64,000 nt of DNA from Macrolepiota albuminosa (Eukaryota; Basidiomycota; Agaricomycetes; Agaricales; Agaricaceae). The stretch covers positions 186,001 to 250,000 of the forward strand of contig JAMWFC010000070.1 of the NCBI GenBank assembly GCA_027475525.1, written 5' to 3'. The notes beneath the pieces are model-generated. The model saw only the letters and a list, made by a program, of their open reading frames with translations. It ran no database searches and had not been told where the DNA came from. Positions within the stretch are counted from its first letter, which is position 1. The number at the start of each line of letters is the position of its first letter. The position numbers and the translations under genes were made by a program. This document shows positions 7,956-52,633 of this stretch, piece by piece.

Positions 7956-8998
7956 TGATAGGCTTCTACTCGGACTGAGCGCATCAAGGAACATTATAGG
8001 CCGACCAACACTTGACACACTAAAGGCTCTAGCGACCAGCCTTGGGTACAGAGCAGCCCTAGCGTGGGCGCTCTATGGCAGGACTTATCCATTCATCTCA
8101 ATCACCAGCATCAGCCCCTCAGCGCACTCCACTCAGTCACTTTGAAGACCAAGAAGACTCAGGACTCATAGCACTAGCATAACGGCAGGAGGTGACTCTG
8201 ACCAAACCCCGATCAGTACTGGAAGGAGTTAGCAATTGGCGCTGTCAATCACCGAGGCACCTCAATCAGAAGTCTAAAAGAATCAATGACGACAAGACAG
8301 GATACACGCAGACCTGACATTTAAATCTATCAAAAGATGGTACAATGTTTAGCGCCGGAATTAGCGCTCACGGCGTCTGTCGAGGATTCCCCGACCATAC
8401 CCCGGGATGGCATGGCCAATTAAATTACATCAAAAAGTGAGCAAACTCGTACCACTTCTAAGTAGTTTTTGAGTCGCCGTTGGTCGCCGTCACCCATGTG
8501 CTGCAGGTCGCCATTGACAGGTGGCCGTTAGCTACAGTCACAAAGAGAGGCGCTAATTGGTAGCGCCATCAATGGACTTATTTTGGAAATAACGTAGCGC
8601 ATAGTATAAAAACTAGCTACTTGCCATGTATATAACAACGAATCGTAACCTCTTGAGCACCCAGTTACACTTAGCGTTCAAATCGCACTAGCGTTGCCTG
8701 ACTTTGTCACCAAGTTCGGCGCTAGCTTCGTCTATCTCGTCTTCGTCGTTTACAGTGCCACCTACGGGCACGCTACGCTGCGCTATTCGTTTATTTCTCT
8801 ATAACTTCTCCTAAACTACGATGCTTACCACTTGCTAGGTAGCACCCAAGGCGCTATCGTCTAGCGCATCACCCCATCTCCTCTGCTCGAGCACACTGGG
8901 ACCCTGCCGGGACTCCTCACAAACCCGTACGCCAGGCGCTGGAGACGGCGTTGTACTGTGTATACGTCCAGCACACCCAACCACAGTTGGCGTCATCA
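7956..8998 (+). repeat. 5' LTR of element B
   Basis: Runs TGATAGG...GTCATCA, same length as the 3' LTR. TATAAAA box at 8605-8611, inverted repeat GGCGCTA-ATTGG-TAGCGCC at 8549-8567. Confidence 0.95.
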
Positions 8999-9001
8999 TT
9001 T

Positions 9002-9018
9002 TGGAGCCCACCGCGAGG
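9002..9018 (+). other. Candidate primer-binding site of element B
   Basis: TGGAGCCCACCGCGAGG starts 3 nt after the LTR. TGG is the usual start of a tRNA-complementary primer site. The same sequence is at the same place in C and X. The tRNA is not identified. Confidence 0.55.
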
Positions 9019-9077
9019 GGTTCTATTGAGGCAGAATTCCGCCGGAAACTCGAGCCCAGCGACAGCACCGCCTCCTA

Positions 9078-10593
9078 TTGGAGAGCGCGTTTGAACAAAC
9101 CTTAACTGAGTCACCACACTTACCAGGTGCGCTACCGAGGCAGACTTTAGATCAGGAACTTGAAGCTGCGCCAGATAGCTTGGCTGAAAGCTTCTTTCCA
9201 TTTTCCCGACCGTTCGAATACTTAGCAGGTGAAAACCATACACCGCTTACTCCTTTGGAAGAGCTGTCTAGGTCATTATCGCCAGAACCTAGCGACTCAG
9301 AATTACCCAAGCCAGTACCGACTACAACCACGCCAAGCAAAACTACCACTAACACTACTATTCCCACCACGACGTCGACGCCAGCTAGTATGGAGCAGGC
9401 AAATACACCACGTATGCCGCCAAGAAACCACTTCTCGTCGCCAAAATGGGACGAGACAAAACCTTGCGAGCTAACACAGTATTTTCGAGAATTGGAATAT
9501 TTATTACGCGACTGCCGAGTCACCGACAACACACAAATGAAAGAATGCGCCGCCAGATATGTTTCCTACAATACCGCGGAATCCTGGACAGGACTGGATG
9601 AGTTTCAAGGATTAACACGAGATGCGGTGCCAAGGTCGTTTACCTACGAGGAATGGAAAAAGGCAATCATTAAACTGTACCCGGGCGCTGAAGAATCCAC
9701 GCGCTATACCGTCCTTGAAATCCAGAAACTGGTACAGGATACCTTTGCAACAGGCATTTATACGCTAGGCACGCTATCTACTTATTATCGAGATTTCCAG
9801 CGAAACTGGTACAGGATACCTTTGCAACAGGCATTTATACGCTAGGCACGCTATCTACTTATTATCGAGATTTCCAGCGAATTGCAAGATGGCTAGTACA
9901 GAACGGCAAACTCTACAGGAACGAGGAGCGGCGCTTGTTTCAACAAGGCATTCCAACATCACTATGGACCCGTATAGCTCGTCGCTTAGAAATTCTTAAG
10001 TCCGACCACCACCCTGAGGAACCCTACGATATAGAAGACGTTTTTGAAGCAGGAAAATGGATACTGAAAGGAACGGATACCGGCATCCCCTTCCAGCGAC
10101 CCTCTAGTACTGATAACAAAGGAAAAGTGCCACCTGTTGCGGCGCCAGCACCTAGCGCGACTAACAATCAGGGAGGTTTTGTCAAGAAGGAGGATCTGGA
10201 AAACGCAGTCAACACGGCCGTCGCAAATGTTATGAGCAAATTGGAAACGTTAATCTCGACTAGCCTTAATGTGCCACGAGGTAATATGCAATCCGGCCCT
10301 TGTCACTTCTGTGGTGAGGCAGGACATACAATGACTCGCGGACACTGCGCTATCCTCGAACAATATCTACACCAAGGAAGAGCGCGCCGAGGCGCCGACG
10401 GGAAAATAGTCCTACCCTCCGGCGCTAACATCCCTCTATATCCTGAGCACCGAACCTTCCAGGGACGAATTGATGAATGGCACCGACGTAACCCTGGGAA
10501 CTTAGCGACGGGCAATCTCAATAGTACGGCCGCAACAGAGGCAGAAACAACTCCACAACAGGCGCTAATCCATGAAGTACTCCAGCTTAACGC
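9078..10593 (+). CDS. Gag of element B (frame interrupted by a 77-bp duplication, then a solo LTR)
   Basis: Starts MESAFEQTLTESPHLPGALP; the same start is used in C. The acidic and Thr/Ser-rich N-terminal part is followed by the capsid-like core (RNHFSSPKWDETKPCELTQY, LYPGAEESTRYTV, LFQQGIPTSLWTRIARRLEI, EAGKWILKGTDTGIP) and a zinc-knuckle-like CHFCGEAGHTMTRGHC (C-X2-C-X4-H-X6-C, longer than the usual X4). The 77-bp duplication at 9725-9878 shifts the frame. At 10594 a solo LTR interrupts the gene; the frame resumes at 11669 with SERPTLSREERIETLEREL. The gene therefore continues into protease in one frame, as in C. Structural polyprotein that packages element RNA. Confidence 0.88.
9725..9878. 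repeat. 77-bp tandem duplication in gag of B
   Basis: Two copies at an offset of 77; shifts the gag frame. Confidence 0.95.
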
Positions 10594-11664
10594 TGATAGG
10601 CTTCTACTCGGACTGAGCGCATCAAGGGACATTATAGGCCAACCGACACTTGACGTATTCAGGACTCTAGCGACCAGTTGGGAATATAGAGCAGCTCTAG
10701 CTCTGGCAAATTACTACAGGATGTGGAAATTTACCCTAACCCCTAGCTACCAGGCCTTCAGCGCACTCCTTTCACCTAGCCCAAGGATGAAGAAGGCTCA
10801 TAACGTATAACGCTAACACGACGGCGGGAGAGGACTCTAACTAAACCCCGATCACTGCCAGAAGGAGCCAGCAGCAGGCGCTGCCATTTGACAAGGAACT
10901 TCAATCAGAAGTCTAAAAGGATCAATGACGGCGGCACTGGATATACTTAAATCCAACATCTGGACCTGCCAGGAACTAATACAATGAGTAGCGCTGACAT
11001 TAGCGCTCACGGCGTCTGTCGAGGATTTTCCGAACATACCCTGGAACAGCTTGGCCAATCGGAGATATAGTAAAAGTGAGCAGACTCGTACAATTCTAAG
11101 TCAATATAGAGTCGCTGCTGGTCGCCGTGGGTCATAGCGCCGTTGGTCACCGTCAGCCATGTGCAAAAGGTCGCCGTTGACAGGTCGCCGTTAGAGGAAA
11201 CCACAAGGAGAGGCGCTAGGAGGTAGCGCCGCAGATGGGCTCGTATCTTGGCAAACACGGTAGCGCATAATATATAAAATAGCTACTTTACATGTATATA
11301 ACAACAAATCGTAACCCCTCGAACACACAGTTACACTTAGCGTTCAACTCGCGCTAGCTTCCTTCGACTTTGTCACTAAGTCGGGCGCTAGCTTTGTCTA
11401 TCTCGTCTTCATCGTTTACGGTGCCACCTACGGGCACAATACGCTGCGCTACTCGTCTTTTCTCCGATATCTTTGCCTAAACCACGACGCTTACCGTCTG
11501 CCAGGTAGCCCCCGAGGTGCTATAATCTAGCGCATCGTTTTACTACCTCCACTCGAGCACACCGGGACCCTGTCAGGACTCCTCACAACTACGTACGCCA
11601 AGCGCTGGAGACGGCGTTGTACTGCGTATACGTCCAGCACACCCAACCACAGTTGGCGTCATCA
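10594..11664 (+). repeat. Solo LTR inserted between gag and protease of element B (1071 bp)
   Basis: TGATAGG...GTCATCA ends, TATATAAAA at 11271-11279, inverted repeat GGCGCTA-GGAGG-TAGCGCC at 11212-11230. It is flanked by acgc duplications (10590-10593 and 11665-11668), and the sequence without it matches C across the junction (ALIHEVL-LNA-VSERPTLS). It is more diverged than the LTRs of A or B, so it comes from a sister subfamily. Confidence 0.88.
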
Positions 11665-11668
11665 ACGC

Positions 11669-12827
11669 TGTTAGTGAGCGACCGACGTTGTCACGAGAGG
11701 AGAGGATCGAGACGTTGGAAAGGGAGCTAAAGTCTCTAAAGAATCAGGTTTTCGATGGTGTCGAGATTAAAAAGAGCAAGCAACCGTTGAAAGACTATAG
11801 ACCCTCAGGCGCTACGTCAGATCCAGCACCCGCAAAGCCTTCGAATTCCAGCATCAACGACGACACACCTGATAAGGCCAAAGCATCAGCTAGCATGGAA
11901 CCGCCACTACACCCGTATTCAGGACTTGCCGGTAACTACGCTCCGCCTATCAATCAAAACTTTGAGGCGCCAGACAAGCCAGCAGGAGGCTACCGACCAA
12001 TGGCACCAATCTACGACATAGAAAAATCTAAGCAAGTATTCGATTGTATTATGAAAAGTCAAGTCACGATGTCGGTAGGGGAGCTATGCAGTATGGCACC
12101 AGACGTCAGGAATCAGATGCGTACAGCGGTTACCCCCCGACAAAATGTAGCTAACAATGTAATGGCGGTGGACGAATGCGACGACGTGCTACCTGGACTC
12201 GCGTACATAACAGAGACGGTCGCATCGGAAATCAAAGAAGAGGCCGCGCCACCCAAAGAAGCTATGTCTATTGACCCGGTTGAAACCTACCTTAAATCAC
12301 TAAGATCTAGCGACGATCCTGCCGTCCTCACTGTAGCCCAAGACTCTCACGTGATTCGCTCAATTATGTTGACAGTTGATGGAAAAAGCGAGATAGAATC
12401 TATCGTGGACAGCGGATCACAGATTATTTCAATGGCTGCCGAAGTTGCTAACGAGCTAGGCATCATTTACGACCCTACCATCATTCTTAATATGCAAAGC
12501 GCTAACGGCACTATTGATCGATCCTTGGGAATGGCTCGTAACGTGCCATGCGCTGTTGGCGATCTTACGTTTTACCTTCAAATACACATTCTTAGATCGC
12601 CTGCGTACAACTTATTATTAGGGAGGCCCTTCGACGTCTTAGCCCGATCAGTAGTCAAGACGACGTCTGAAGACGAAACAACGCTAACTATTAGCGACCC
12701 TAACTCGGGCGTCAGAAGGACGGTACCAACGTTTCCACGGGGGAAATTCCAGAAACCGGGACCGAGAAAGCGACCTTACGTTAGCGACGACCCCTGCAAG
12801 TGTTTTCTGGCGCCATCAAGGAGATGA
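11669..12827 (+). CDS. Aspartic protease region of element B gag-pro
   Basis: Continuation of gag in the same frame after the solo LTR. It begins with a charged coiled segment (REERIETLERELKSLKNQV) and then a linker. The protease core contains ESIVDSGSQIISM, with the active-site D-S-G, and YNLLLGRPFDVLARSV, typical of the second half of retropepsins. It stops at 12825-12827. The RT frame overlaps it in the -1 frame from about 12800, as it does in C. Confidence 0.85.
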
Positions 12828-15800
12828 GTGATGAGGATCATGGAGATGAAGCGCTTATCTTGGACTATAACCATCGGACTGGGCAAGTAAACTTTATATC
12901 ACATACCTCTTTAGCCCATGAAATCTTGAATTCTTCTTCGTCGCTTACTAGTGAAGCGTTATCCTACTTATACCTCACCGCGTCAGATATTGCTGAAAAC
13001 CTTTCAACAGACACTTATTTCGTTTCTACTCCCGACTCTAAAGAACCTTTGATATCAGGTTTCGCTAGAAACCATGACTCTATTTATAATACGTTTGCTA
13101 ACAATAGTACCTCTAAGCGCAAAGGGGTTCAGGTCAAGAAGAAATATAAACCCGTAGTATTTATAATACGTTTGCTAACAATAGTACCTCTAAGCGCAAA
13201 GGGGTTCAGGTCAAGAAGAAATATAAACCCGTAGCGCTTAAAACAAAACCGGTAGCAAGCGCCGTACCTGAGGAATTTCACATTGAAAGAAAAATAATAG
13301 GCGACCCTTTGGCTACCCTGCCAAAACTCGACCCAAATCCACCACCCTTCGAACCAACAGGACAATTTACAGAAGAACAAAAGGCGCTATTTCTTAGCGC
13401 CCACGATACCGGCTTCCTCTCGACGGAGGAAATGAACGTATTAGTCAACATCATGCAAAAACAGAATGAGGCTTTCGCATGGGAGGACTCCGAACGTGGT
13501 AAACTTAGAACTGACTTCTTTCCACCAGTGGTTATACTGACAATACCGCACGTACCTTGGACTGAGCATAACCGACCCATACCTCCGGGCATCGAAGCCG
13601 AAGTCTGTCAAATTATTCGCTCCAAGATAGCGGCAGGTGTATACAAGCCTTCTAATTCGGCCTACCGCTCAAGATGGTTCTGCGTACTAAAGAAAAACGG
13701 GAAGCTACGTATAGTTCACAGCTTAGAACCGCTAAACAAAGTCACCATTCGTCATTCAGGGGTACCGCCATTTCCCGATCACGTCGCTGAATCTTTTGCG
13801 GGACAAATATGTGGCGCTACCCTGGATTTGTACGTAGGCTATGACGAGCGCTTAATCCATCCTTCCTCTTGCGACTTGACGACATTTCAAACACTGTTTG
13901 GGACGCTACGACTAGTCACACTTCCTATGGGATGGACAAACTCGGTACCGATATTTCACGACGATATTACGTTTATCCTACAGCCCAAAATACCCCACCA
14001 TGTGCTCAGCTTCATAGACGACGTAGGAGTTAAAGGCCCGAAGGATTGGCGATTGGTAGATGGCAAACCCGAAGTTCACCCGGAAAATCCTAATATTTGT
14101 ATGGCGCTATGGGACTTCTTTCAACTGGTTAACCGAGTACTTCAGCGCATGAAGTATTGTGGCGGGACGTTTTCAGGGCACAAGCTCGTTCTTTGCGCAC
14201 CGCAGTTTAAAATTTTGGGGCACGTTTGCACGCCAGAAGGCAGGATTCCAGAAAAGAGCCGATTAGCGCTGCTGGAGAAATGGGGGGTCTGTCATAACCT
14301 CTCGGAAGTTCGCGCGTTCTTGGGCACTGTAGGGGTGCTGCGCATGTTCATACACCATTTTTCTCATTGCGCAAACACCCTTAATCGCCTAACCCATTCA
14401 GGGGTCCCCTTCAAATTCGGACCCGATCAAATCAATGCCCAGAAGGACTTAGTAAAGGCGCTACAGGAAGCAAAACCATTGGTACCCATTGACTATACTA
14501 CCGCCGATCCCGTTATACTTGCTGTTGACACATCATATATTGCCGTTGGCTTCTTCTTATGCCAGTGTGATAGCGCGAACCGGAAAATCAGGCGCTACAA
14601 TTGCTTCGGGTCGATTACCCTTAACGACCGAGAATCGCGCTACAGTCAGCCCAAGCTAGAGTTATATGGCTTGTTTCGATCGTTTCAGGCGCTGTGCATG
14701 TACCTCATTGGGGTACAAAATCTCATTGTCGAGGTCGACGCACGATACATCAAAGGAATGCTTCAGAACCCTGATATTCAACCGTCGGCCAGTATGAACC
14801 GCTGGGTAGTAGCGATATTAATGTTTCACTTCGAGTTAGTACACGTCAGAAGTGCATTCCACGGGCCGGACGGATTATCTAGGCGACCCAGACAACCGGA
14901 AGATGAAGCGCTAGACGATAGCGACAACGATGTATTTGACGACTGGATTGATTGATTGCATGGTTTCATGCATATCATTCAGCTGCCTATTCTGGTGCTT
15001 CGCGAAGGCCAACCAGTTTCAAATTGGCTTCACCCTATTGTTCCGTACCAGCCCCGACCATATCAGGCATCATCAACTTTTTACACGGCCAGTATCTATA
15101 ACGTCGCTAAGCCGTCTAACGATCTAAAGATAGTCGAGGAACCAAAACCCTTGCGAGAAGACAGTCAGAACCTGCCATATTCGGCGGTACCTCGAAGCGC
15201 CAAAGCTAAGTCAGAAGACCAGCAAGTGGACCAGGTTAGGAAGTGGCTACAAGATTTGCGACAACCATCAGACCTTACGGATACGGAATACGCCACCTTC
15301 ATTCGATATGCGACGACTTTCTTTATAGTGATTTGCGACAACCATCAGACCTTACGGATACGGAATACGCCACCTTCATTCGATATGCGACGACTTTCTT
15401 TATAGTGGAAAACCGACTTTGGCGACGAAATAGAGATGGCGCCCATAAACTAGTAATTAAACCGGATAATCGAGTTAGGATTCTACGCGCTATGCATGAT
15501 GACTTGGGACACCGAGGACTTTACGCAACAAGGGCGAACCTTTTGGAGCGCTTTTGGTGGCCACAAGTTAGCGCCGATATTGCGTGGTATATTCGCACTT
15601 GTCATCTCTGTCAAATCCAGCAGACACGTCAGGTTCTAATCAAGTTAGCGCCGATATTGCGTGGTATATTCGCACTTGTCATCTCTGTCAAATCCAGCAG
15701 ACACGTCAGGTTCTGATTCCCCCAACAGTAGCGACTCCAGCGCCGTTATTCGGAAAAATATATATCGACACCATGCACATGCCCAAGTCAGGGCGCTACA

Positions 15801-16811
15801 AGTATATCAGACTCCAGCGCCGTTATTCGGAAAAATATATATCGACACCATGCACATGCCCAAGTCAGGGCGCTACAAGTATATCATTCAGGAAGGTGTT
15901 CCTTGGTACATTGGCCGGAGTTTCGTATGCTCCAGCGAGAAAATACAGACGCTATAGCTAAGTGGCTCTTTGAGGACGTTATCTGCCAATGGGGAGCCCT
16001 TCACGAGATCGTCACAGACAACGGAGCGCCAATAGTCAAGGCGCTCACTTATCTTGCCAAGAAATACAACATACAACACATCCGAGTCTCAGGATACAAT
16101 AAACGTGCTAATGGAATTGTAGAAAGGCCTCATTTCGATGTTCGACAAGCGCTATTCAAGGCGGTCGACGGTGACAAAAGTCGCTGGAGCGAGGCAACTT
16201 ATTCGGTCTTCTTGTCGGAGCGGGTTACCATACGAAAAAGGATGGGCTGCTCTCCCTACTATGCGGCGACTGGCACCCACCCCTTGCTACCTGCGGACGT
16301 GGTGGAAGCGACGTATTTACAACCCCCACCGAACTCAATACTATCCTCTACCAACATGATCGCTAGGCGCGCTATAGACTTACAACGATGCATGGAGGAT
16401 CTCGAGCGCTTACACGAGGTAGTATTTCAGGCTAGACGACAAGCTGCGCTACGATTTGAAACCGAGCATAGCGCCACGATCCGAGACTACAACTTCACAA
16501 CTGGCGCCCTAGTACTAATGCGCAACTCCAAGATCGAAGTTACCCATAACAAAAAGATGCGGCCTCGGTATCTGGGACCCCTAATAGTGGTTTCCCATAA
16601 TAGGGGAGGCGCATACGTACTCTGCAAGTTGGACGGCTCAGTTTTGCATCGACCAGTAGCGGCGTTCCGGCTCATTCCTTACTTAGCACGTGAACACATT
16701 TCATTACCTTTATCGGCGCTGGACATTGACACTGCTAAACTTTGAGAGCTAGAGGAGACCGAGCTTGTGGACGATGACGAAGTCGCACCAGAAGAAGAAA
16801 CCGATCAGTAA
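12800..16811 (+). CDS. RT-RNase H-integrase polyprotein of element B
   Basis: -1 relative to protease. RT: RSRWFCVLKKNGKLRIVHSL, GATLDLYVGYDE, LVTLPMGWTNSVPIFHDDI and the catalytic box SFIDDVGVKGP (F-I-D-D in place of Y-x-D-D). RNase H: ILAVDTSYIAVGFFL, PKLELYGLFRSFQ, VEVDARYIKGML. Integrase: zinc finger HDDLGH...CHLC, catalytic D in YIDTMHMP, D in EIVTDNGAPI and E in IVERPHFDVRQA. Broken by 77-bp duplications at 13081, 15253, 15564 and 15733. True lesions are TGA at 14953 (CGA in C), a 1-nt loss near 15893 and TGA at 16743. The full frame would end at 16811. No chromodomain. Confidence 0.88.
13081..13234. repeat. 77-bp tandem duplication before RT of B
   Basis: Two copies at an offset of 77; shifts the pol frame. 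Confidence 0.95.
15253..15406. repeat. 77-bp tandem duplication, pol of B
   Basis: Two copies at an offset of 77, upstream of the integrase finger. Confidence 0.95.
15564..15717. repeat. 77-bp tandem duplication in the integrase finger of B
   Basis: Offset 77; one A/G mismatch near the end of the unit. Confidence 0.95.
15733..15886. repeat. 77-bp tandem duplication in the integrase core of B
   Basis: Two perfect copies at an offset of 77. Confidence 0.95.
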
Positions 16812-16829
16812 TAGGACTCGAAGGGGAAG

Positions 16830-16848
16830 GGCGCTAGACCTTAGCGCC
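16830..16848. other. Inverted repeat GGCGCTA-GACCT-TAGCGCC after pol of B
   Basis: Perfect 7-bp arms about 20 bp after the restored pol stop, between convergent pol and orf1, as in A and C. Confidence 0.7.
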
Positions 16849-16938
16849 TTGCACCTTACTTATGAAAGGAATAACAACGCATAGGATTTCGTACTATACA
16901 GGACTAGGGAACTGGCAATAATTGATCTACTGGCTACT

Positions 16939-17727
16939 TTACGTTCTACGGCGAGGACCCCTGACAAATCCCTCAGAACGCTGGGGGTGCTGTTTGCGGC
17001 GGAGATGCGCAGGAGAAGGAGGCGGTGCAGGGGGGAGAATAGGCGACGGAGTAGAGGGAAAGGTCCCCGGAGGAAAGGTGGAGAAGCCGGGAGGAGATTC
17101 ATTTGTGGGAGCAGGCGGCGCTCCAGCGTGAATGGTGGAGGAGCCGGTGGGAGACTCGTTTATGGGAGCAGGCGGCGCTCCAGCTCCGAAGCGAAAGGTG
17201 GAGGAACCGGATGGAGACGCATTTATGGGGGCAGGAGGCGCCCCAGCCCTGAAGCGAGGAGCTAGAGGCGTAAACGGTATGATGACGTGCTGAAGCGTGG
17301 CGGCACGAACTTCGTCATCAATCAGGTCTGGCAAGGGCAACCACTTCAAAGTCTGAAGCTGGGGGTCAGCAAACCTGAACGTATGAATGGGAAAAGAAGA
17401 GGAACTAACAACATTATCCGTTTCGAGGAGTAGGTACTCCAAGCTTTTTGTGCTACCCGAAATAGGAGGCTGGAAGGACACGTAAGAAGGTACTTAAGGA
17501 CCCTGACGGTGGAAACTTACCGCGTTGGGGTGCTGTTCGGACTCCACGAGCCACTCCTGGGCCATAGCCAGAAGTAACCGGTAGCGCCGAATCAGGGTAA
17601 GGATATTCCCGTTGTGGTGTTGGATACCGCCTGGGGGCAGTCGAGCAAAGAACATCTCGAGGCGATCTAAAACCTCGGGACGAGGGATGGAGGTGATGTC
17701 TTCAAGAAAGAAAGAGGGAGTAGGCAT
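16939..17727 (-). CDS. Antisense orf1 of element B, two exons, 245 aa
   Basis: Exon 1 17727-17521 (69 codons, MPTPSFFLEDITSIPRPEVL), a phase-0 intron gtaagt...ccttccag, and exon 2 17469-16939 (177 codons with stop). The N-terminal half has LDRLEMFFARLPPGG and LIRRYRLLLAMAQEWLVE; the second half begins PPISGSTKSLEYLLLETDNV and ends in Pro/Ala-rich repeats (AGAPPAPINxSPxG three times). No known domain, signal peptide or membrane segment. The same two-exon structure is in C; A has the same exon 1. Related to orf2. Antisense and convergent to pol. Unknown role. Confidence 0.72.
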
Positions 17728-18195
17728 TCCGAAGAACTTAACAACGCTAGGCCCGGAAATCTCAGATATATACCTAGCGACATTATGCAGGGTCGAAGGG
17801 ACTTAGGAAACAGAACTTATGCGGCACCATCACGAGGACGCGACAACAACGATATATTTCATATAACTACGGCAGGGACTTAGGAAACAGAACTTATGCG
17901 GCACCATCACGAGGACGCGACAACAACGATATATTTCATATAACTACGGCAAGAGAATCAAAAAGCTGGGAATATGTCAGGCCAGTGGCGCTGCGAAGAA
18001 GATGGGATCGCCTCACTCAAACAATAGGGGGGGGGAAGAAAAACAACACGTGACAGGTCAAGAAGGGCCGAACCAAGAAATACGCTTGCTAACAACCGTC
18101 GGCCCCTCGAGGGGACCACAAAAGAGACGAGCACCGGTATACTTGCGAGGGACTAGGAGAAAAGAGCCGTTAGACACGGAAGGAGAGGTGATGGC
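17728..18195. other. Spacer between orf2 and orf1 of element B
   Basis: Conserved with C (30322-30722). It contains the 77-bp duplication 17797-17950. A minus-strand stretch near 18070-18155 reads PRKYTGARLFCGPLEGPTVV, paralleled in C and A, so an additional orf2 exon is possible. I could not settle the splice sites. Confidence 0.4.
17797..17950. repeat. 77-bp tandem duplication between orf1 and orf2 of B
   Basis: Two copies at an offset of 77; A and C have one. Confidence 0.95.
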
Positions 18196-18575
18196 TCAGT
18201 TACTAACCAGGTAATAGCTTTCCTCCATCAAAAGTTGAAGACGATCCGCCGTGTCTTCGGTGGCGATTTCCTGGATTTGGGCGACTGTCAGGAGTGCGCC
18301 AAGAATAGCAAGACATGTACATGGAAAGCCTGACTCCAAGTAGCCTCTGTACCAAAACGCGTTAACGGGGACGCGTCTCCCCAAATTTCACAAGCAGCCC
18401 GCAGAAGCCGACAGCGACGACCCAACTCGACTACTTCGTCGGCCAACTTAGGAATACCCTTGGGAGGGTAATGATGAAAGAATGAGGTGGCCCGGTCCAG
18501 AAAGGTGGGAGGGTCCATGGTAACATAGGCGCGATCACAGCTTTGAGTCCACACGCAACCAGATGGGGTGGCCAT
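18196..18575 (-). CDS. Antisense orf2 of element B
   Basis: Starts MATPSGCVWTQSCDRAYVTM at 18575 and continues DPPTFLDRATSFFHHYPPKG and LGRRCRLLRAACEIWGDASP. A likely intron gtacatg...aaatccag joins exon 1 (ending AFH) in phase 0 to EIATEDTADRLQLLMEESYY, followed by a gttagt donor at about 18213. The end of the protein is not resolved. LDR..FF...PP.GI...RR.RLL.A..E.W is shared with orf1, suggesting an old duplication. TATAAA (18618-18613) lies about 40 bp upstream of the ATG. Function unknown. Confidence 0.6.
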
Positions 18576-19177
18576 CGCAAAGACTGATGGAATCGAGTTG
18601 ATGCATAAGTAATTTATAGGACACGGGAAGTGTTTCGATTAGTGACAGCGTGGGAGGACTTTTCTCAAGGAGCCAGGACCCTAACAGGAGCGCTAGCCAA
18701 TCAAAAGTGTTTAACTTATTCTGGGTCCCTCCAAAAAGGGAATCGACATTCGATGTTTAGCGCTTACTCACAACCGCACTAAACGGGCATAAGCGATCAC
18801 TGGTTTTCTATTTCTTTATACGCTCTACTTCTTACATGGATCCGCTTATTTATTTCCAGACAGTTCCTATTTTCTACTTAGGCTGGCGCGGTAATGGCTA
18901 TTGGACCGCGTCGGCAAAGGGGTTTTTGATTTCCAGACAGTTCCTATTTTCTACTTAGGCTGGCGCGGTAATGGCTATTGGACCGCGTCGGCAAAGGGGT
19001 TTTTGTGCTGTGATAATCTACTGAGTGTTTCCCCTTTTTTTTTACTTATTTTTCTTTTGGTTACTTACAAACTGACGATTTGAAGACAAGGGAGGCGTTT
19101 ATTTTAGTATCACACACTACAAAGTTCGTATCAAAAGACAAAGTCCATAAAAGTTTAAAAGCGCTAAGGGTCGGCAA
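18576..19177. promoter_or_regulatory. Intergenic and promoter region of orf2, element B
   Basis: No gene. TATAAA on the minus strand at 18618-18613. Contains the 77-bp duplication 18852-19005. Strongly conserved with A and C, including the segment with ggctggcgcggtaatggc. Confidence 0.5.
18852..19005. repeat. 77-bp tandem duplication upstream of orf2 of B
   Basis: Two copies at an offset of 77; A and C have one. Confidence 0.95.
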
Positions 19178-21878
19178 CTACAGATCATACTTGGGAAGGG
19201 CAGGATCGCCCAAAGGAAGCAAGTCCCCGTCCTGGATCGAGTTACTCGCTTGCCACTCAAGCGCAGCTGTAATATTGTCATGGAGCTCGAGAAGGAGGCG
19301 CTTGCGGCAAGCTAAGGTGGAAACACAAGGACGCAGGTTGGCAAGTTCGCGACCAACGACTTCAGTCGCATCCTCAATATGGCGAAGTTGCTGGCGAAGG
19401 TCGGCAGAAGGACGGAGAGGGGTCACGGGATAGGAGAACTCGTCCCCGAGCCAAGGGAAGGCGTCGCCAGAAACTCGCATGGCGGGAGGGGGCGTCCAAA
19501 AGGGATTGAACTTATTGGGAGATTAGAAAAGGGGAGAAAAGGGGCACAAACAAAGACGAACGTACCCGGACAGTTACAGGCGCACGGGGTGTCCATTCAT
19601 GGCGCTCGTTGCTGGGGGACATAGCTCTGGCAGAAGAAAGATGGATGCCGTAGGGAGGCAAGTATCTCCAGCGGCGATGACGCTCACCTTCCGGCACCAG
19701 GGTTTCTTCGGACTCTGGCGCCGCAGAAGTCTCGCGGCTACTAGGAAAAGAAGAGGAGCTGTGGGGAGGAGTAAGGGATGGAGTAATGGGGAGAGCGCCG
19801 CAGAAGTCTCGCGGCTACTAGGAAAAGAAGAGGAGCTGTGGGGAGGAGTAAGGGATGGAGTAATGGGGAGAGCAACCAGAGTGTCGCTAGCCGCAACCGA
19901 CTCGGGGGCAGGGGTAGCGCCAGCATCAGACATAACGACATCTTCGGCAGCAGGGATAGCCACTACGGCGGGAACAGGAGTGGGGGACCTATCAGTCAAG
20001 AAGTTAGCACGCGAAGAAAAGAGAAGTTAGGAAAATGCGTACTGGTTACCACTGGGGCCACTCTGACGAGGGTTAGCGGCGATAGGGGGAGTAAGGCGAA
20101 GCAGGAGAGCGCGTACCGCCAATAGCGCATCGGCATCGACAACGGGCTCAGCTTCATCATCATCCTCTCCCTCGGCATCCCTCTCAGTGCCCTCCCCCTC
20201 ATCCATAGAAGACTCGGTCGAAGACAAAACCACAGGCGTAGCAGGCGCTAGCTCGCGGCGCTTACCAGGGCTCTTGCCAGGAGACGCAACAACAGGCTTA
20301 CGTTTTGAAAGAATGGGACGACGAGGAGAGCGAGCAAAAGGTGCCGCCACGGTGGTACCATCCTGGGTAGTCGGCAGCGCCAGGCTGGCTGCGCTGATTA
20401 CTGTGGGCTGGTGAGTAGCCGCCAGATCGCGTTGCTGCAGCACAAAGTCCCGGGCGTTATGAACTAACACCGCGTGCTCATAGTTCCTTTGCATAATGGC
20501 GTCCCTACCATGTTCACGAGTACGAATCCCGTTGAAGGCGCAGCCCCGTTTCAACGCATCGCACCGATAGCAAGGCAGAGACGCGATAGGAAACCAGCAG
20601 CCCTCAGGATTGTTCTCAGACCAACACTTGTCACACTGAGAAAGAAGTCAGCGATGGCATGAATCTACCAATGGGCAAACCAGTGCTTACCGCGCCAATC
20701 TTTGCCCTAAACGCGCGACGCTCCAAGGGCGCAACGGTAACCTTCTTCTTGCCGCCCAGTACTTGGACACCAGCCAGGACGCCGGTATCAATAACGGTAG
20801 TATCACGGCAAAGACGCAAAAGGTCGCGAAGCTCCGCGTCGGTGAACATGGTCTGGTTAGGCGCCTATCGACATTAACATTTAGGCGCTAAAGTCTAGCG
20901 ACAACGAGCAAAGCACTTACGACATACAAAGGGGGAACACGAGCAGGGAGATTGATCTGGAAGGGGAGAAGTCAGAAAATGGAGTAAGGAAGATGGGGAA
21001 AGAACGCACGGTACGTTTGGGAGAACTAGCATGAGCAGGAGGCGCTCGTTCAATAACAATGGCGAAATTATGCGGAGGACCGTGGGAAGTTGTGTGCGTC
21101 GGACCAGGTCGTGGCTCGCTACGAGAAACGGCAATGCGTTTGATGGCCGAATGAGGAGGGGCAGTGCGACCGGGAGAAGCAGCGCTTGGGGCAGTGCGAC
21201 CGGGAGAAGCAGCGCTTGGGGCAGGGCGAGTGGAAGAAGCAGCGCCACGAAAAGGGCTGCCAAGAACGGAAGGAGGCGGAACAGAAGTCAAAGAAGGAGG
21301 GGCGGTAGGAACAGAAGGGACAGTAGAGGCCGAGGGGGCAGTAGGAAGACTGGCGACGGTGGGAGATGTGAAGGAGGGGCGGTAGGAACAGAAGGGACAG
21401 TAGAGGCCGAGGGGGCAGTAGGAAGACTGGCGACGGTGGGAGATGTGGCAACCGACTACTCAAGGATTAACAGTGGGAAAAGGGGGGAAGAAAAGGAAGG
21501 ACTTACTTCGCTGACCTCGGTACTAGCCAACAATGCGTCGATTTCGTCGGATAAGGAGGGAGCCTAGTATGGGCGCTGAACCTTAGCGCCACAAAGCCAA
21601 AATCAAACTTAGAAACTTACAAAAAGGTCCGCGAAAGGGCGCAACCAATCGGCACCTTCGAACTCACGGTACTGGGCCACACACCACTCGCGAACCTCGT
21701 CACCCCGCTCCCAGGAACTGTCGGAGCCGCGGACCACGAGCCAGCGCCGATAGAGTTGCATAATACCAGGGACGGTTTGTGGCGCATCGACGGGACCGAC
21801 AGACTTAGCACGATCAAATAAATAGGAGGCCTTAGCCAGGAAATTGCGGAGAGCAGAGGCATCGAAAGAAGTGGACAT
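19178..21878 (-). CDS. Antisense orf3 of element B: eight-exon zinc-cluster protein, 721 aa
   Basis: Exons: 21878-21621, 21563-21507, 21455-21010, 20956-20921, 20864-20691, 20635-20043, 19988-19566, 19510-19178. All introns are GT-AG, about 50-60 bp. With the 77-bp duplications in exons 3 and 7 removed, the coding length is 2166 nt (722 codons with stop), in frame throughout. Exon 3 is Ser/Pro-rich; exon 5 has DAELRDLLRLCRDTTVIDTG and GKKKVTVAPLERRAFRAKIG. Exon 6 begins exactly with CDKCWSENNPEGCWFP then CYRCDALKRGC: C-X2-C-X8-C-X8-C-X2-C-X6-C, like a Zn2Cys6 cluster. Basic and acidic stretches and a C-terminal amphipathic region follow. I infer a nuclear, possibly DNA-binding protein; the biological role is unknown. 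Confidence 0.8.
19718..19871. repeat. 77-bp tandem duplication in orf3 exon 7 of B
   Basis: Two copies at an offset of 77; removal restores the exon phase. Confidence 0.95.
21161..21220 (-). repeat. 30-bp in-frame tandem repeat in orf3 exon 3
   Basis: Two copies of gcagtgcgaccgggagaagc plus 10 bp encode RPAPSAASPG-type repeats. Element A has one copy. The length is a multiple of three and the period differs from the 77-bp class, so this is probably a genuine repeat. Confidence 0.75.
21293..21446. repeat. 77-bp tandem duplication in orf3 exon 3 of B
   Basis: Two copies at an offset of 77; removal restores the exon phase. Confidence 0.95.
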
Positions 21879-21928
21879 GCTGGAAAGATGGGAAGGAAAA
21901 CACGGGAAGGTGAAGTACGGAAAACGAC

Positions 21929-21935
21929 TTTTATA
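21929..21935 (-). promoter_or_regulatory. TATA box of orf3, element B
   Basis: TATAAAA on the minus strand, about 51 bp upstream of the ATG at 21878, conserved in A and C. Confidence 0.65.
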
Positions 21936-21989
21936 AGGCGCTGGCAGCATTATACGGACCGTAGCGCAGTCAAATTAACGACGGCGTTT

Positions 21990-22024
21990 GACTGAGGACA
22001 GTCAATTTTTCAGTTGGGAGGAGA
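21990..22024 (+). other. GACTGAGGACAGTC motif and polypurine tract of element B
   Basis: The conserved motif (21990-22003) is followed by the purine run gggaggaga that ends at the 3' LTR start (22025). Confidence 0.75.
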
Positions 22025-23067
22025 TGATAGGCTTCTACTTGGACTGAGCGCATCAAGGGACATTATAGGCCAACCAACACTTGACACACTAAAGGCTCTA
22101 GTGACCAGCCTTGGGTACAGAGCAGCCCTAGCGCGGGCGCTCTATGGCAGGACTTATCCATTCATCTCAATCACCAGCATCAGCCCCTCAGCGCACTCCA
22201 CTCAGTCACTTTGAAGACCAAGAAGACTCAGGACTCATAGCACTAGCATAACGGCAGGAGGTGACTCTGACCAAACCCCGATCAGTACTGGAAGGAGTTA
22301 GCAATTGGCGCTGTCAATCACCGAGGCACCTCAATCAGAAGTCTAAAAGAATCAATAACGACAAGACAGGATACACGCAGACCCGACATTTAAATCTATC
22401 AAAAGATGGTACAATGTTTAGCGCCGGAATTAGCGCTCACGGCGTCTGTTGAGGATTCCCCGACCATACCCCGGGATGGCATGGCCAATTAAATTACATC
22501 AAAAAGTGAGCAAACTCGTACCACTTCTAAGTAGTTTTTGAGTCGCCGTTGGTCGCCGTCACCCATGTGCTGCAGGTCGCCGTTGACAGGTGGCCGTTAG
22601 CTACAGTCACAAAGAGAGGCGCTAATTGGTAGCGCCATCAATGGACTTATTTTGGAAATAACGTAGCGCATAGTATAAAAACTAGCTACTTGCCATGTAT
22701 ATAACAACGAATCGTAACCTCTTGAGCACCCAGTTACACTTAGCGTTCAAATCGCACTAGCGTTGCCTGACTTTGTCACCAAGTTCGGCGCTAGCTTCGT
22801 CTATCTCGTCTTCGTCGTTTACAGTGCCACCTACGGGCACGCTACGCTGCGCTATTCGTTTATTTCTCTATAACTTCTCCTAAACTACGACGCTTACCAC
22901 TTGCTAGGTAGCACCCAAGGCGCTATCGTCTAGCGCATCACCCCATCTCCTCTGCTCGAGCACACTGGGACCCTGCCGGGACTCCTCACAAACCCGTACG
23001 CCAGGCACTGGAGACGGCGTTGTACTGCGTATACGTTCAGCGCACCCAACCACAGTTGGCGTCATCA
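22025..23067 (+). repeat. 3' LTR of element B
   Basis: 1043 bp, TGATAGG...GTCATCA. It differs from the 5' LTR at 14 positions, all transitions. TATAAAA at 22674-22680. Followed by the target duplication gcgc. Confidence 0.95.
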
Positions 23068-23077
23068 GCGCCTAACC

Positions 23078-24280
23078 CGTATAGGGTCCTATCACCACTA
23101 CATTCAATCGTGCGAACCCTGCCTCTGGGCCAAGGTCTCCCGACACTGACCATATGGACTCCTAAAACCCCTGCCAGTCAGACGACGCCCCTGGTCCTCC
23201 ATATTCCTGAACCACATCGTCGAACTCCCGGAATCTGAAGGGTTCGATGCCATTCTCGTCGTTGTGTGTAGGCTAACCAAACAGGGCATCTTCCTACCCT
23301 GCCACACCACAGACACCGCCCCAGACTTTGCCCGGCTGTTTCTCAAGCACATCTTCGCCAAACACAGACTTCCAGACGACATCGTCTCTGACCGTGGCCC
23401 ACTCTTCGTGTCCAAGGTCTGGACTTCTCTGTGTAAGGCCCTTGAAGTAAAGACTAACCTCTCTACTGCCTACCACCCCAAAACCGATGGTCAAACTGAA
23501 AGGGTCAATCAGTCTCTCGAGCAGTACCTCCAACTGTATGTCAACTACTTGCAGGATGACTGGCGTGCCGAGCTCCCCCTGGCCGAGTTCACCTACAACA
23601 ACACGCCACACTCTGCCACCGGGGTATCACCTTTCTTTGCCAACAAGGGATACCACCCCCAACTGACACTCTCACTCCGGGACATCCCATCGCACGCCGC
23701 CCATGAGGTCGCCCGGGAACTCCAGTCCCTTCACGAGTTTTTCCGGGAAGAGATCAACACCACGAACCAGGCCTATGCAAAACACACCGACTGGAAACAG
23801 GAAGACACCCCTGACTAGACCTCCAAGACAAAGGTATGATTAGATCGACACCACCTCCGCACCTACCAGCCCTTCCCAAAACTCGATCACAAGCGCCTCA
23901 GCCCGTTCAGAATTTTGAAGAAGGTCTCATCCCACGCCTACAAGATCGAGCTTCCCCCAGGACTTAAAGGCCTGCACCCGGTATTCCACGTCCGCCTCCT
24001 GGAACAACACCCCCCGGATCTCTTCTCCGAACAACGGCCTGAACCCCCTCCCCTGGTTGAGGTCGAGGATGAGTACCACTACGAGGTTGAAGACATCCTC
24101 GACTCCCGGAATATCTATGGACGACCCCACTTCCTCGTATGGTGGAAGGGACATGGCCTGGAGGACAACACTTGGGAACTGCGCCAAAACCTCGAAGGCG
24201 CCCTTGACAAACTCTGGGACTTCCAGCAGCGGCATTCAGGAAACGACCCCCCTGGGTGCAGGACTCACAGACGGCAGTAG
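23078..24280 (+). pseudogene. Chromovirus F integrase and chromodomain (decayed)
   Basis: One frame from the C-X2-C half of the zinc finger (YIQSCEPC) through SRH-stop-PYGLLKPLPV (TGA where SPRHRPYG is usual), catalytic D in DIVSDRGPLFVS, then TAYHPKTDGQTERVNQSLEQ with the catalytic E. It continues AYKIELPPGLKGLHPVFHVR to a C-terminal chromodomain (YEVEDILDSRNIYGRPHFLV, WWKGHGLEDNTWEL). Stops also occur at 23816 and 23837 (TGA for the W of VWLDR). The chromodomain would bind modified histone H3 to target integration. Not functional as read. Confidence 0.85.
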
Positions 24281-24611
24281 TGGGCGTAACCTCCACCTCT
24301 GGGCTCAGTAGGGATTCAACTTCCATGTATATTTTCTGCCCTCTCTAGATCTTACTCCCTTTTAGTACCTTTTTTCACAGTAGCGCCCCGGAGTCGGGGC
24401 AAGGTCTCTTTCCAGTTCTCCTGCCACATTACTATTCTTTTTTACTTATTCCGGCAGATCAAGTATATACATTTTCTCTACATTTACACTATTCTACAAT
24501 ACCAGACCGGAACAAGAATCAACAGACATACATTTACACTATTCTACAGTACCAGACCGGAACAAAAATCAACAGAGGAACAAAGACAAGAAAAAGAAAA
24601 AAAGAAGAAAA
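24281..24611. other. Non-coding spacer of F with an imperfect 50-bp tandem repeat
   Basis: No gene. Two copies of about 50 bp (from 24481 and from 24531, catttacactattctac...) differ at a few positions. The period is 50 and the copies are imperfect, so unlike the 77-bp class this looks real. Confidence 0.6.
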
Positions 24612-25630
24612 CTACCGGCCCTTGCTCCCTTCCTCCCCGGGCCAGCCTCGGAATTCCTCCCCCATCCCCTCCAGACCATGCTCCTGCAGTACCTCCTCCG
24701 CCAACTGCTCCCAGGCTAGGAGAGACTCACCCTCGTCCAGGACCCTTTTGAACCAGGAGCCAGGGGCGGGCATGTTCCTCTGCCAGTGTGCCGACACCAC
24801 CCACCCCAGCAAGTCGAGGCCCTGCTCCATCGCCTCCCCCACCGGCTCCACCACCCAGTCCCGCTCCTTGACCCCCATCCTCCGGGTGATCCCCCTAGCA
24901 GCCACCCCTGCTCCTGAGAGACACAGCATGCCCTCCACAGCGCTGACATGAAACATCGCTCGTGGTTGAGGCAGCACGCCTCACACACAGACGTGTCCTG
25001 GCAGGACGAGGGGCCCGGGACCTCAAACAGGCAGGAGACCACCCGTTGAGCGCAGTGCAAGCACTGCGCCAAAGTCAGCAACGAGACCTGAGGTAAGAAA
25101 GCACTCACCGGTCCGTTGCTCATGCACCAGGCATGGGCAGGTAGACCCCGGGGCCTCTCCAGGGCCTCCCCAAACAACTCCTGTGTTGCGTCTGCCCACG
25201 CAACATGTTGACCCTCTGGGACTTCTGAGACGGCCCCTATTGCCATCCCAGAACGACGGAAACGGGGGGCAGGCAGTCTAGGGCAGGGAGGGGGTTGAGG
25301 ATAGAGAGGGCGGACAGTCATCCGCACAAAGGTAGGTGCGGGACGACTCGGGCGGGACTCCAGGAGGACACTAGGGCCTGCATCGGGAGCAGGCTCCGGG
25401 TGCCGGCTGGGACCCGCTTCCGGGACAGGATTATTGAGTTGTTCTGGAATAGGAAGGTCAGTTGAGATAGGCGGACGACGCAGGAAGCACTCACATTGCT
25501 GGACAAGCTCCGCCATGCACTTCCGGTTGAGGCGAGCTTGGTATCGTGTGTCCCAGGCTTCCCAGGCCATGAGGGGCACGACCTCATTAGTGTGTGGGGG
25601 CATCGGGGAATGCATTGGCGTATGCGACAT
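24612..25630 (-). pseudogene. Antisense gene of chromovirus F with cysteine cluster
   Basis: Exon 1 25630-25109 (174 codons, starts MSHTPMHSPMPPHTNEVVPL) contains ARLNRKCMAELVQQCECFLR and a Pro-rich middle, and ends SNGP before gtgagt. Exon 2 starts at 25063, phase 0, directly with CLHCAQRVVSC ... CEACCLNHERC, i.e. C-X2-C-X6-C and C-X2-C-X6-C, very like a Zn2Cys6 cluster. After the last cysteine the sensible frame (FHVSAVEGMLCLSGAGV ... LLAWEQLAEEVLQEHG, ending at 24612) is shifted by one, so a 1-nt indel is likely. It has the same position, strand and intron placement as orf3 of A/B/C although F belongs to another lineage. Confidence 0.7.
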
Positions 25631-26905: not shown

Positions 26906-29384
26906 ATGTCTACTTTCGATTCTTCTGCTCTTTGTAATTTCCTGGCTAAGGCCTCTTATTTATTTGATCGCGCCAAGTCTGTTGGACCCGCCGATGTGCC
27001 ACAAACCGTCCCTGGCATCATGCAGCTATATCAGCGGTGGCTCGTGGTTTGCGGCTCTGACAGTTCCTGGTCGTGGGGTGCCAAGGTTTGCGAGTGGTGC
27101 ATGGCTCGGTACCGCAAATATGAAAGTGCTGATTGGTTGCAGCCATTTGCGGACTTGTTTGTAAGTTTTAGATTTGATTTTGGGTTTGTGGCACTAAGGT
27201 TCAGCGCCAATGCCAGGCTCCTTCTCTGTCCAACGAGATCGACGCCCTGTTGGCTAGCACTAAGGTTAGTGAAGTAAGTCTCTCCTCTTTTTCCCCACGC
27301 CTTCAAAATTGACTTTGAGTAGTCGGTGGCTACGTCACCTACCATTGCCAGTCTTCCTAGTGCTCCGTCGGCTTCTACTATCCCTTCTGCTCCTGCCCTT
27401 CCTCCGGCTCCTCCCTCTTATGCTTCTGCTCAGCCTTCCCCTGTCCTTGGTAGTCCTTTTCGTGGCGGTGCTTCTCCTGCTCGTACTGTGCCTCCTCATT
27501 TGGCCATCAAACGAATTGCCATTTCCTCCAGTGAGCCTCAGCCCGGACCTACCCATACTATTTCTCGTCTCCCCCCCATAACTTTGCTGTTGTTATTGAA
27601 CGCGCACCCCCTTTGCATGCTAGCCCTTCCAAACGTACTGTGCGTCTCTTGCTTTCATGCTTCTAATCTTTTGCCCACTGTGCTCCCAGGTCAATCTCCC
27701 TGCTCACGTTGCCCCTTTTTATGTTGTATGTGTCTCCTCTCAAGATCGGTAGATTTTAGCGCCTGATCATACTCTTCTTAGGCGCCCAACCAGACCATGT
27801 TTATGGACGCAGAACTTCATGACTTGTTACGCCTTTGCCGTGACACTACCATTATTGATACCGGCCTTCCAGCTGGTGTCCAAGTACTTGGCGCTAAAAA
27901 GAAGGTTACAGTTGCGCCCATGGAGCGTCACGCTTTTAGGGCAAAGATTGGCGCAGTAAGTAGTTGTTCGTCCCTGATAGCTTGATGACATCACCAACTT
28001 CTTCTTAGTGTGATAAATGTTGGTCTGAGAACAATCCTGAGAGCTGTTGGTTTCCTACCGCCTCTCTTTCCTGTTACCAATGTGATGCGCTAAAACGTGC
28101 TTGTGCCTTCAACGGGATTTGTACTCGTGAGTGCGGTAGGGATGCTATCATGCAGCGCAACTTCGACGCGCCATCCTAGTTCGTAATGCCCGGGCCTTTG
28201 TGCTACAGCAACGTGACCTAGCGGCCATTCACCAGCCCACTGTGATTAGTGCTGTCAGCCTCACGCTGCCCATTACTCAGGATGGCACCACCATGGCAGC
28301 CCCCTTCGCCCACTCTCCCCGTCATCCTGTTCCCTTAAAGCGTAAGCCCATCATTGCCTCTCCTAGCAAGAGTCCCAGTAAGCGCTGGGAGCTAGCGCCT
28401 GCTACTCCCGTGGTGTTGTCTTCCACCGAGCCGTCTACTGATGAAGGGGAGGATACTGAGAGAGACACTGAGGGCGAGGATGACAATGAGGCTGAGCCTG
28501 TTGTCGATACCAATGCGCTGTTGGCGGTATGCACCCTTCTACTTCACCTTACTCCCCTTATTGCCACTGACCCTTATCAGAGTGGTCCCAGTGGTAATCG
28601 GTGCGTAGTCCTCGTGTTTCCTTTCCAGTTGCACTAACCTCTTGGTTGCCAGATCCCCCACTCCTTTGCCTCCCATTGTCGTGAATATCCCCCTTGTTGA
28701 AGATGTCGTGATGTCTGTCGCCGGCACTACCCCTGCTCCTGAGACTGCAGCAGCCAGCGCCTCCCCTGTCGCTCTTCCTATTACCCCATCCCTTACTCCT
28801 CCTCGCAGCCTTTCTTCCTTTCCCAGTACTTGTGAGTCCTCTACTGCGCCTGAGTCCGAAGGGACTTTAGTGGCTCAGGGTGAGCGCCGTCGCCGTTGGA
28901 GGTACTTGCCTTCTTATGGCGTTCACCTTTCCTCTGTCAGGGCTATGTCCCCAGGCAACAAGCACCATGAATGGACTCCTTGCGCTCCCGTAACCGTTCG
29001 AGTAAGTCTGCACTTATTAGCCTCTTTCCTCCTTCTCTGATCGCTACTAAGTTCGATCCCTTCTGAACTCCTCCTCCTGCTATGCACGTTTCTGGCGACA
29101 CCTACCCTTGGCTTGGGGATGAGTTTTCTTACCCTGTTACCCCCCTCTGGCCTGCCGTCGATCTCCATCAACAACTCTGCCATATCGAGGATGCAACCGA
29201 TGCCGTTGGGAACGAACTCGCCATTCTGCGCCCTCGTGTCTCTACCTTAGCGTGCCATGAGCTCCTCCTCCTCAAGCTGCATGATGACATCACTGATGCG
29301 CTTGAGTGGCAAGCGAGTAATGCTATTCAGGATGGGGACTTGCTTCCTTTGGGCGACCCCGCTCTTTCCGTGTCTGATGCATAG
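26906..29384 (+). pseudogene. Antisense orf3 of element C (frameshifted)
   Basis: Exon 1 26906-27160 (85 codons, MSTFDSSALCNFLAKASYLF) is followed by the same intron pattern as in B. Cysteine exon from 28009: CDKCWSENNPESCWFP then CYQCDALKRAC; all six cysteines are kept. Frame losses: a 1-nt change in a C run near 27570 (HTISRLPP... leaves the B frame) and a 1-nt loss near 28167 (QRNF then GCGCCATCCTAG). The last exon contains VSGDTYPWLGDEFSYPVTPL and ends at 29384. Confidence 0.72.
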
Positions 29385-41375: not shown

Positions 41376-41689
41376 TGTAACAAAGTTATGAAGTTTATAG
41401 AGCTTAGTGTGCACACACACTGAATCAGACCAGACCGGTCTATTGACAATGTAGTATACAACAAAAGAAGTTTATAGAGCTTAGTGTGCACACACACTGA
41501 ATCAGACCAGACCGGTCTATTGACAATGTAGTATACAACAAAATAAGCTGCTTAATAAGCAGCACATATGTACATATATATAGGGTAAAGTAATTAATAT
41601 ATTAATATTATATTATAATAAATATAATATAATATCTACTACAGTAAGTAAAGCTATGTGGCCAACGCCACATAGCGGACTACGCTACA
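41376..41689 (-). repeat. 3' LTR of chromovirus D
   Basis: Plus-strand ends TGTAAC...GCTACA. Contains the 77-bp duplication 41390-41543, without which it is 237 bp, one base shorter than the 5' LTR. The purine run ttggggggtg (minus strand, 41690-41699) precedes it. Confidence 0.9.
41390..41543. repeat. 77-bp tandem duplication in the 3' LTR of D
   Basis: Absent from the 5' LTR of D. Confidence 0.95.
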
Positions 41690-41734
41690 CACCCCCCAAT
41701 CAGACCGAGCTATGGTCTTGAGATAATACAATGG

Positions 41735-52602: not shown

Positions 52603-52633
52603 GAAGCTCGAGAAGCTGATAGAGTTCTGTCAA

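Follow-up and report, generated by a model that had tools for sequence, protein, structure and literature searches.

Antisense six-cysteine genes and candidate family-specific DNA words in two Ty3/gypsy retrotransposon families of Macrolepiota albuminosa

Two families of Ty3/gypsy long terminal repeat (LTR) retrotransposons, here called B and F, are represented in a 64,000-nucleotide stretch of the Macrolepiota albuminosa genome (assembly GCA_027475525.1, contig JAMWFC010000070.1, positions 186,001 to 250,000; “the window”). Each carries a gene on the strand opposite to pol, between pol and the 3′ LTR, with an exon-intron structure conserved among copies and a predicted product containing six conserved cysteines, and each family is enriched in a short DNA word of its own. 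The favoured reading, to which we give slightly less than even odds (about 0.48), is that these are element-specific DNA-binding regulators encoded antisense, each recognizing the word of its own family.

Element B (7956..23067, plus strand) is of Ty3 type, with LTRs at 7956-8998 and 22025-23067 (98.7% identical), a target duplication of GCGC, and a solo LTR (10594-11668, target duplication ACGC) nested inside it. Because the LTR pair could be mapped, the antisense gene can be placed between pol and the 3′ LTR. It runs on the minus strand from 21878 to 19178, with 146 bp separating the ATG from the LTR edge. Comparison of copies suggests eight exons: exon 1 (21621..21878, with the ATG at 21878, also supported by dN/dS, the ratio of nonsynonymous to synonymous divergence), exon 2 (21507..21563), exon 3 (21010..21455, its frame broken in this copy by duplicated stretches that lengthen it), exon 4 (20921..20956), exon 5 (20691..20864), exon 6 (20043..20635), exon 7 (19566..19988, 77 bp longer in this copy) and exon 8 (19178..19510, including the stop codon). 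A TATA-like box lies between the 3′ LTR and the gene (21929..21935, minus strand); 35 of 37 copies retain it, one has a variant and one lacks letters there. Intron 5 (20636..20690), placed by splice-site conservation, is in phase 0, and its 3′ end abuts the first cysteine codon; its donor GTAAG[CTG] and acceptor [TC]AG are present in 37/37 copies. Exon 6 thus opens at 20635 with the first cysteine of a C-X2-C-X8-C-X8-C-X2-C-X6-C motif, as an initial annotation of this stretch had proposed, and continues into a low-complexity part; all six cysteines are invariant in 12 aligned rows of genome copies and Termitomyces proteins.

Element A carries the same gene at 2253..4764 (minus strand, eight exons, exon 3 out of frame), as does element E at 26906..29384 (plus strand, E itself being on the minus strand, with LTRs at 25684-26758 and 38554-39628 that are 97.4% identical and flanks CCGG/CTGG). 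The initial annotation had assigned this gene to elements A, B and C, and a different one to the same slot of E. An antisense gene is indeed present in E, but it is that of A and B; the window copies are therefore A, B and E, no piece could be matched to C, and 10594-11668 is the solo LTR. In the whole genome there are at least 150 B-type matches (150 of 858 candidates scored). Detailed comparison was made on 37 copies: A, B, E, 28 of the matches with the best scores, and six divergent copies selected from the match table. GT..AG boundaries are found in nearly all of them at the seven introns, suggesting that these are spliced from the RNA; the exceptions are one AT donor in L005, and the loci L063 and L023, which lack the first and the last exons, respectively.

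The B-type antisense frame has a dN/dS of 0.09-0.23 in 13 comparisons (which share copies and take copy A as the column reference), with 0-2 stop codons per 586-705 codons; in a 14th, A against L010, there are zero synonymous changes. Intron identity is 0.65-0.92. The three sense frames opposite the gene contain 4-65 stops in the 14 comparisons, and the idea that the antisense frame merely mirrors a coding sense strand was rejected on these grounds; where third positions of the two strands coincide, the sense frame has a dN/dS of 0.15-0.34, yet 12-30 stops. For pol itself, comparison of B with E gives a dN/dS of 0.06, the aligned row containing 5 stop codons. As judged from these substitution patterns, the B-type antisense gene is under purifying selection.

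As assembled, the gene is intact in 16 of the 37 copies (about 711 amino acids) and broken in 21, counts that, with the 37 B-type and 50 F-type copies chosen as described, give no genome-wide rate. In 13 of the 21 broken copies at least one exon is about 74-77 bp longer. When the window and other loci over 2.5 kb were scanned for near-exact tandem duplications with periods of 20-200, the only period found was 77, with 17 cases in the window (including 18791/18868, 19718/19795 and 41376/41453) and 79 in the other loci, some of which overlap one another. The sole period and the additions in 13/21 copies make much of the damage look like an assembly artefact; the 77-bp duplications probably reflect assembly with k=77, breaking many frames. 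The antisense genes could instead be passengers, captured host sequence without a role for the element, as the 21 broken copies and the absence of a functional domain match in the proteins might suggest. This is very improbable in view of the low dN/dS across divergent B-type copies, the preserved splice sites, and the likely artefactual origin of the lengthened exons.

The F family belongs to the Ty3/gypsy chromoviruses by the chromodomain of its window copy and the LTRs of a relative elsewhere in the genome. The window copy is a fragment: the end of pol (23150..24280, plus strand) with an integrase remnant, a Tf2-type SH3 domain and a chromodomain identified by domain scan (Chromo match 37.7 bits, cut-off 25.1); the scan of two B-side pol pieces revealed no chromodomain. 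The relative, locus L090/L091, is flanked by 784-bp LTRs that share 99.87% identity and apparently has the same chromodomain at its pol end (by eye); its antisense gene starts 127 bp away from the 3′ LTR edge. An antisense open reading frame (ORF) between pol and the 3′ LTR is thus seen in B, E and the F-type L090/L091, in agreement with the proposal of the initial annotation that one slot is occupied in two Ty3 lineages, one of them (F) with a chromodomain. The L090/L091 element, bounded by a 5-bp duplication GTTGC (by eye), appears to interrupt the first exon of a B-type antisense gene; its LTR region also holds further partial LTR copies.

In the window, the F antisense gene is represented by an exon with an ATG at 25630 (25109..25630, minus strand, from the ORF and copy comparison), a putative 45-nt phase-0 intron (25064..25108, GTGAGT..CTGAC..CAG) whose 3′ end abuts the cysteine codon at 25063, and the cysteine exon with a remnant (24612..25063), this copy being internally deleted and frame-shifted relative to that in L039 (by eye). 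A long ORF is present in many F-type copies, that of L039 spanning 574 amino acids. The motif beginning at 25063 agrees with the one originally noted, and the gap left between its halves is X15, giving C-X2-C-X6-C-X15-C-X2-C-X6-C. At least 151 F-type matches are present in the genome (150 of 1110 candidates scored), and both families are large there; 50 copies were compared, made up of the 30 best matches and 20 divergent copies selected from the match table. The six cysteines are invariant in 14 aligned rows of genome copies and Termitomyces sequence. Among the 50, a cluster cysteine is lost in two copies (L058, L072) and the piece read contains a stop in four (L043, L060, L061, L062). One further locus, L089, contains 100 N and is truncated.

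The pre-cysteine segment of F is well supported as an intron by the conservation of its splice signals and by a Termitomyces gene model. It has a GT donor in 50/50 copies, a CTRAY branch sequence in 49/50 and a CAG acceptor in 49/50. Its variation by codon position (0.125/0.227/0.250) differs from that of the flanks (0.09/0.12/0.28 and 0.11/0.08/0.23), the second position being nearly as variable as the third, unlike in the flanking exons. For 36 pairs among nine copies, the exons have a mean dN of 0.139, a dS of 0.865 and a dN/dS of 0.07-0.40, indicating purifying selection in this family too, with the top values involving L061, a copy with stops; the segment, read as codons, has a dN higher than that of the exons in 29/36 pairs (up to 0.64). 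The protein P0004 of Termitomyces sp. T112 aligns with precisely the 15 residues of the segment missing. Could the segment nevertheless be coding, and the intron shared with B an illusion? It is 45 nt long in 45 copies and 48 nt in five, with no stop in 50/50; in 7/36 pairs, mostly closer ones and those with L061, it has a lower dN than the exons; and in L035 the acceptor AG is gone while the long ORF persists. The codon-position variation, the conserved splice signals, the elevated dN and the gap in P0004 disfavour a coding segment, and we consider it improbable. The splice signals thus bear out the claim that in both families a phase-0 intron ends just before the first cysteine. The initial annotation had named a lack of conservation of the cysteine spacing or intron in other copies as a possible refutation; both are kept there, with the spacing recurring in the Termitomyces proteins. 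Comparison of copies, then, confirms that the antisense genes of both families are real.

Each family is enriched in a different word. When all 5- and 6-mers were ranked by observed versus expected counts, AGCGC was the top 5-mer in both B (123 vs 35.2 expected, Poisson 1e-30) and E (88 vs 21.8, 1e-26), and its extensions were the top 6-mers. The 77-bp duplicates raise word counts slightly; with these masked, B still has 116 vs 33.5. The two strands of B are about equally represented (58 and 65). Synonymous-codon shuffling of gag/pol in B gave 13.2 against the 41 observed, and of the pol pieces of E 7.5 against 18, with 0/500 shuffles reaching the observed number in either case. The one-base neighbours of AGCGC are near expectation in the whole of B, except for GGCGC (93 vs 33.7), which overlaps AGCGCC; these neighbours and a CpG observed/expected ratio of 1.02 in B count against a general CpG bias as the source of the excess. 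Sites are also better conserved between B and E (46/96 and 46/67) than other CpG words (623/2288 and 623/1468; Fisher 2-3e-5), in a test where overlapping words are not independent. The B sites that differ in E mostly read AGTGC or AGCAC (23 of the changes listed), the pattern expected from deamination of methylated CpG.

The corresponding word in the F family is CCCGG/CCGGGA. The internal part of L090 contains 50 CCGGGA vs 20.3 expected (48 vs 18.8 with duplicates masked), and the divergent F-type L092/L093 contains 34 vs 10.9, with CCCGGA at 39 vs 10.9. The F pol ORF is out of frame past about codon 430, and its in-frame part was retested separately by shuffling: CCCGG 15 vs 6.2 (0/500), CCGGGA 4 vs 0.9 (4/500) and CCCGGA 5 vs 1.6 (7/500); the F antisense ORF has CCCGG at 27 vs 13.8 (0/500). 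Enrichment is reciprocal, strong in B and moderate in F, where it is weaker than in B and modestly above the best words of controls. AGCGC is at 19 vs 13.7 and 12 vs 11.5 in F-type copies, and CCGGGA at 9 vs 7.1 in B and 7 vs 5.1 in E. Seven host loci have AGCGC at 40 vs 39.9 and CCGGGA at 5 vs 11.3, and element G, the single Ty3 element without such a gene that was compared, is likewise flat (21 vs 20.9 and 5 vs 5.6).

Are these one gene or two? The B and F genes share a slot and a strand, the position of an intron, and a cluster built of two C-X2-C halves, and the initial annotation had proposed a single Zn2Cys6-like gene shared across lineages. The cysteine-exon profiles, however, have no similarity (hhalign), and a single common gene identified in that way was rejected; homology of the two proteins is not supported by the sequences, and their likeness may represent either convergence or descent beyond recognition. 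Among the candidates scored, protein relatives were found only in Termitomyces: three hypothetical proteins of Termitomyces sp. T32_za158 for the B type (51-59% identity, with 36-49% of the query covered), and P0004 alone for the F type (best 7987 candidates by shared words). The full-length B-type protein found none at E 0.01 among its best 7989 candidates by shared words, and a plasmid DNA search found nothing useful. Membership in the Zn2Cys6 family was not borne out: in scans for PF00172 (cut-off 21 bits) the B type had no match, and the F-type piece, the L039 ORF and P0004 scored 12.8, 7.4 and 13.7 bits. The Zn2Cys6 spacing consensus is C-X2-C-X6-C-X5-12-C-X2-C-X6-8-C, from which B departs with X8 in its first half and F with a 15-residue loop. 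There is some resemblance in the six cysteines, the two C-X2-C halves, and the CGG/CCGG contained in the F word, CGG-type half-sites being the binding sites of Zn2Cys6 factors; the B and F clusters differ from these factors in their Pfam scores, below cut-off or absent, and in their spacing.

A captured host or ancestral zinc-cluster gene could have given rise to both the B and F genes and would account for the shared intron, in keeping with the same slot and strand, the phase-0 intron in the same place, and six cysteines in similar halves. Among eight host loci with canonical Zn_clus domains (examined by eye), the cluster is split by an intron in three, of which two are nearly identical copies; in L114 and L119 only 2-4 nt appear to separate the end of an intron from the first cysteine codon. 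Such introns are compatible with a common origin from a zinc-cluster gene; since they are not rare in host Zn_clus loci, the shared intron is also weaker proof of one gene, and the coincidence may mean little. B and F moreover differ in exon count and cysteine spacing, and their profiles do not align; this origin is less probable than not.

The words themselves might have nothing to do with the antisense proteins, which would then be regulators or nuclear adaptors unconnected with them, the words arising from integrase or tether targeting, context-dependent mutation bias or host-factor sites. This, too, is less probable than not, and integration provides evidence on both sides. Ten further B-family LTR right ends (among L094-L113) were read with their left partners: target duplications are 4 bp, the right flank is NCGG in 9/10 and TCGT in one, and complete pairs match in 9/9, one left flank being internal and unusable. 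A sequence-biased integration step is thereby indicated. AGCGC is also dense within pol, and the targets of B (GCGC) and the solo LTR (ACGC) are close to it. But the usual B-family target, NCGG, differs from AGCGC, and AGCGC was rejected as the usual integration target although B sits in GCGC; the flat neighbours (save for the overlapping GGCGC) and CpG ratio argue against a general CpG effect. In the nine NCGG flanks CGG is always on the element plus strand; one of them is the symmetric CCGG, so that eight inform on direction. An oriented target is unusual for LTR elements. The apparently oriented integration seen in B-type elements may be a phenomenon in its own right, on which the literature searched contained nothing relevant.

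Several observations weigh against the proposal that the antisense proteins recognize their families' words. No Pfam match above cut-off was obtained for either protein; PDB sequence searches and fold searches gave no convincing match (the absence of a fold match being no evidence of a new fold); the predicted models are of low confidence, with mean pLDDT (the predictor's own confidence score) of 55 and 67; and the B and F cysteine-exon profiles have an hhalign probability of only 0.1 percent. A retained, translated form of the F intron is possible, its length being a multiple of three and its frame open in 50/50 copies. On the side of the words, AGCGC is not enriched in the B-type antisense coding sequence itself (16 vs 12.5 shuffled, 82/500 reaching it), and the overlapping GGCGC is conserved between B and E as well (26/68 and 26/34). 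For F, TCCGG is not enriched, and the best -log10P of the word, 10.4 and 7.7 in two copies, compares with 6.0-6.7 for the top-ranked words of two 11-kb controls. Words also occur outside their families: the part of the window from 53 to 64 kb has 18 AGCGC vs 5.7 expected, with no TAGCGC and no B-type element recognized there, and the non-F part of L089 has 5 CCGGGA vs 1.4.

If the antisense proteins are indeed element-specific regulators, the sequence of events might be as follows. The accessory gene would be read from the opposite strand, starting 127-146 bp outside the 3′ LTR and running towards pol, in the B family from its own TATA-like box and through eight exons. The exon that opens at the first cysteine encodes a compact six-cysteine cluster of two C-X2-C-X6/8-C halves, which probably binds zinc and DNA. 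We infer that the protein would recognize the word filling its own family, [T]AGCGC for B and CCCGG[A] for F, and so mark its own copies, resulting in activation or in shielding from silencing, as VANC does for VANDAL. The family-specific words lend indirect support to the suggestion of the initial annotation that the genes could control the element. More tentative, with the odds against it, is the broader idea that two Ty3 lineages each evolved a spliced antisense six-cysteine DNA-binding protein along with a family-specific word distributed throughout the element, coding sequence included, as VANC-like self-recognition and anti-silencing systems, possibly tied to integration at NCGG.

A regulatory antisense gene near the 3′ LTR also occurs in human T-cell leukaemia virus type 1 (HTLV-1), where HBZ, a bZIP protein, is started in the 3′ LTR; the B and F genes differ in having a six-cysteine cluster and, for B, a TATA-like box outside the LTR. 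HTLV antisense genes are mentioned in PMC11963269, which describes plant Ty3 antisense accessory genes without known function. Of the systems compared, the closest precedents appear to be VANC in function and Retand/Grande in anatomy. Retand/Grande elements have antisense ORFs between pol and the 3′ LTR, as in B and F; according to PMC11963269, they are plant non-chromoviruses with a TRP28 domain (PF04195). The genes described here are fungal, have six cysteines (and, in B, multiple exons), occur also in a chromodomain lineage, and are accompanied by family-specific words; PF04195 had no match in B exon 6, B exon 1, the window F ORF, the L039 ORF, P0001 or P0004. VANC resembles them as an element-encoded protein with a short word that is dense in its own family, rare elsewhere, and different between families (PMC5735166). 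In Arabidopsis VANDAL elements the motif is mainly in non-coding tandem repeats and in one orientation, and binding has been shown (same source), whereas the B and F words are on both strands and in coding parts too, and their binding is proposed by analogy. No fungal antisense LTR-element gene of this kind was recognized in the literature searched, which covered few subscription journals. A selected fungal antisense gene with conserved splice signals and an abundant candidate binding word in each family would make the function of such genes testable by a binding assay; if the proposal is true, sequence-specific self-recognition would extend to LTR retrotransposons.

The window contains other repeated sequences. 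Element G (41376-52862, minus strand) is a Ty3 element with reverse transcriptase, RNase H, integrase and a CCHC motif; long ORFs follow its pol in the sense direction (42100-43371 and 43552-44637), and it has no comparably enriched word. Another diverged direct repeat, 83% identical, is formed by 39722-40435 and 31190-31910.

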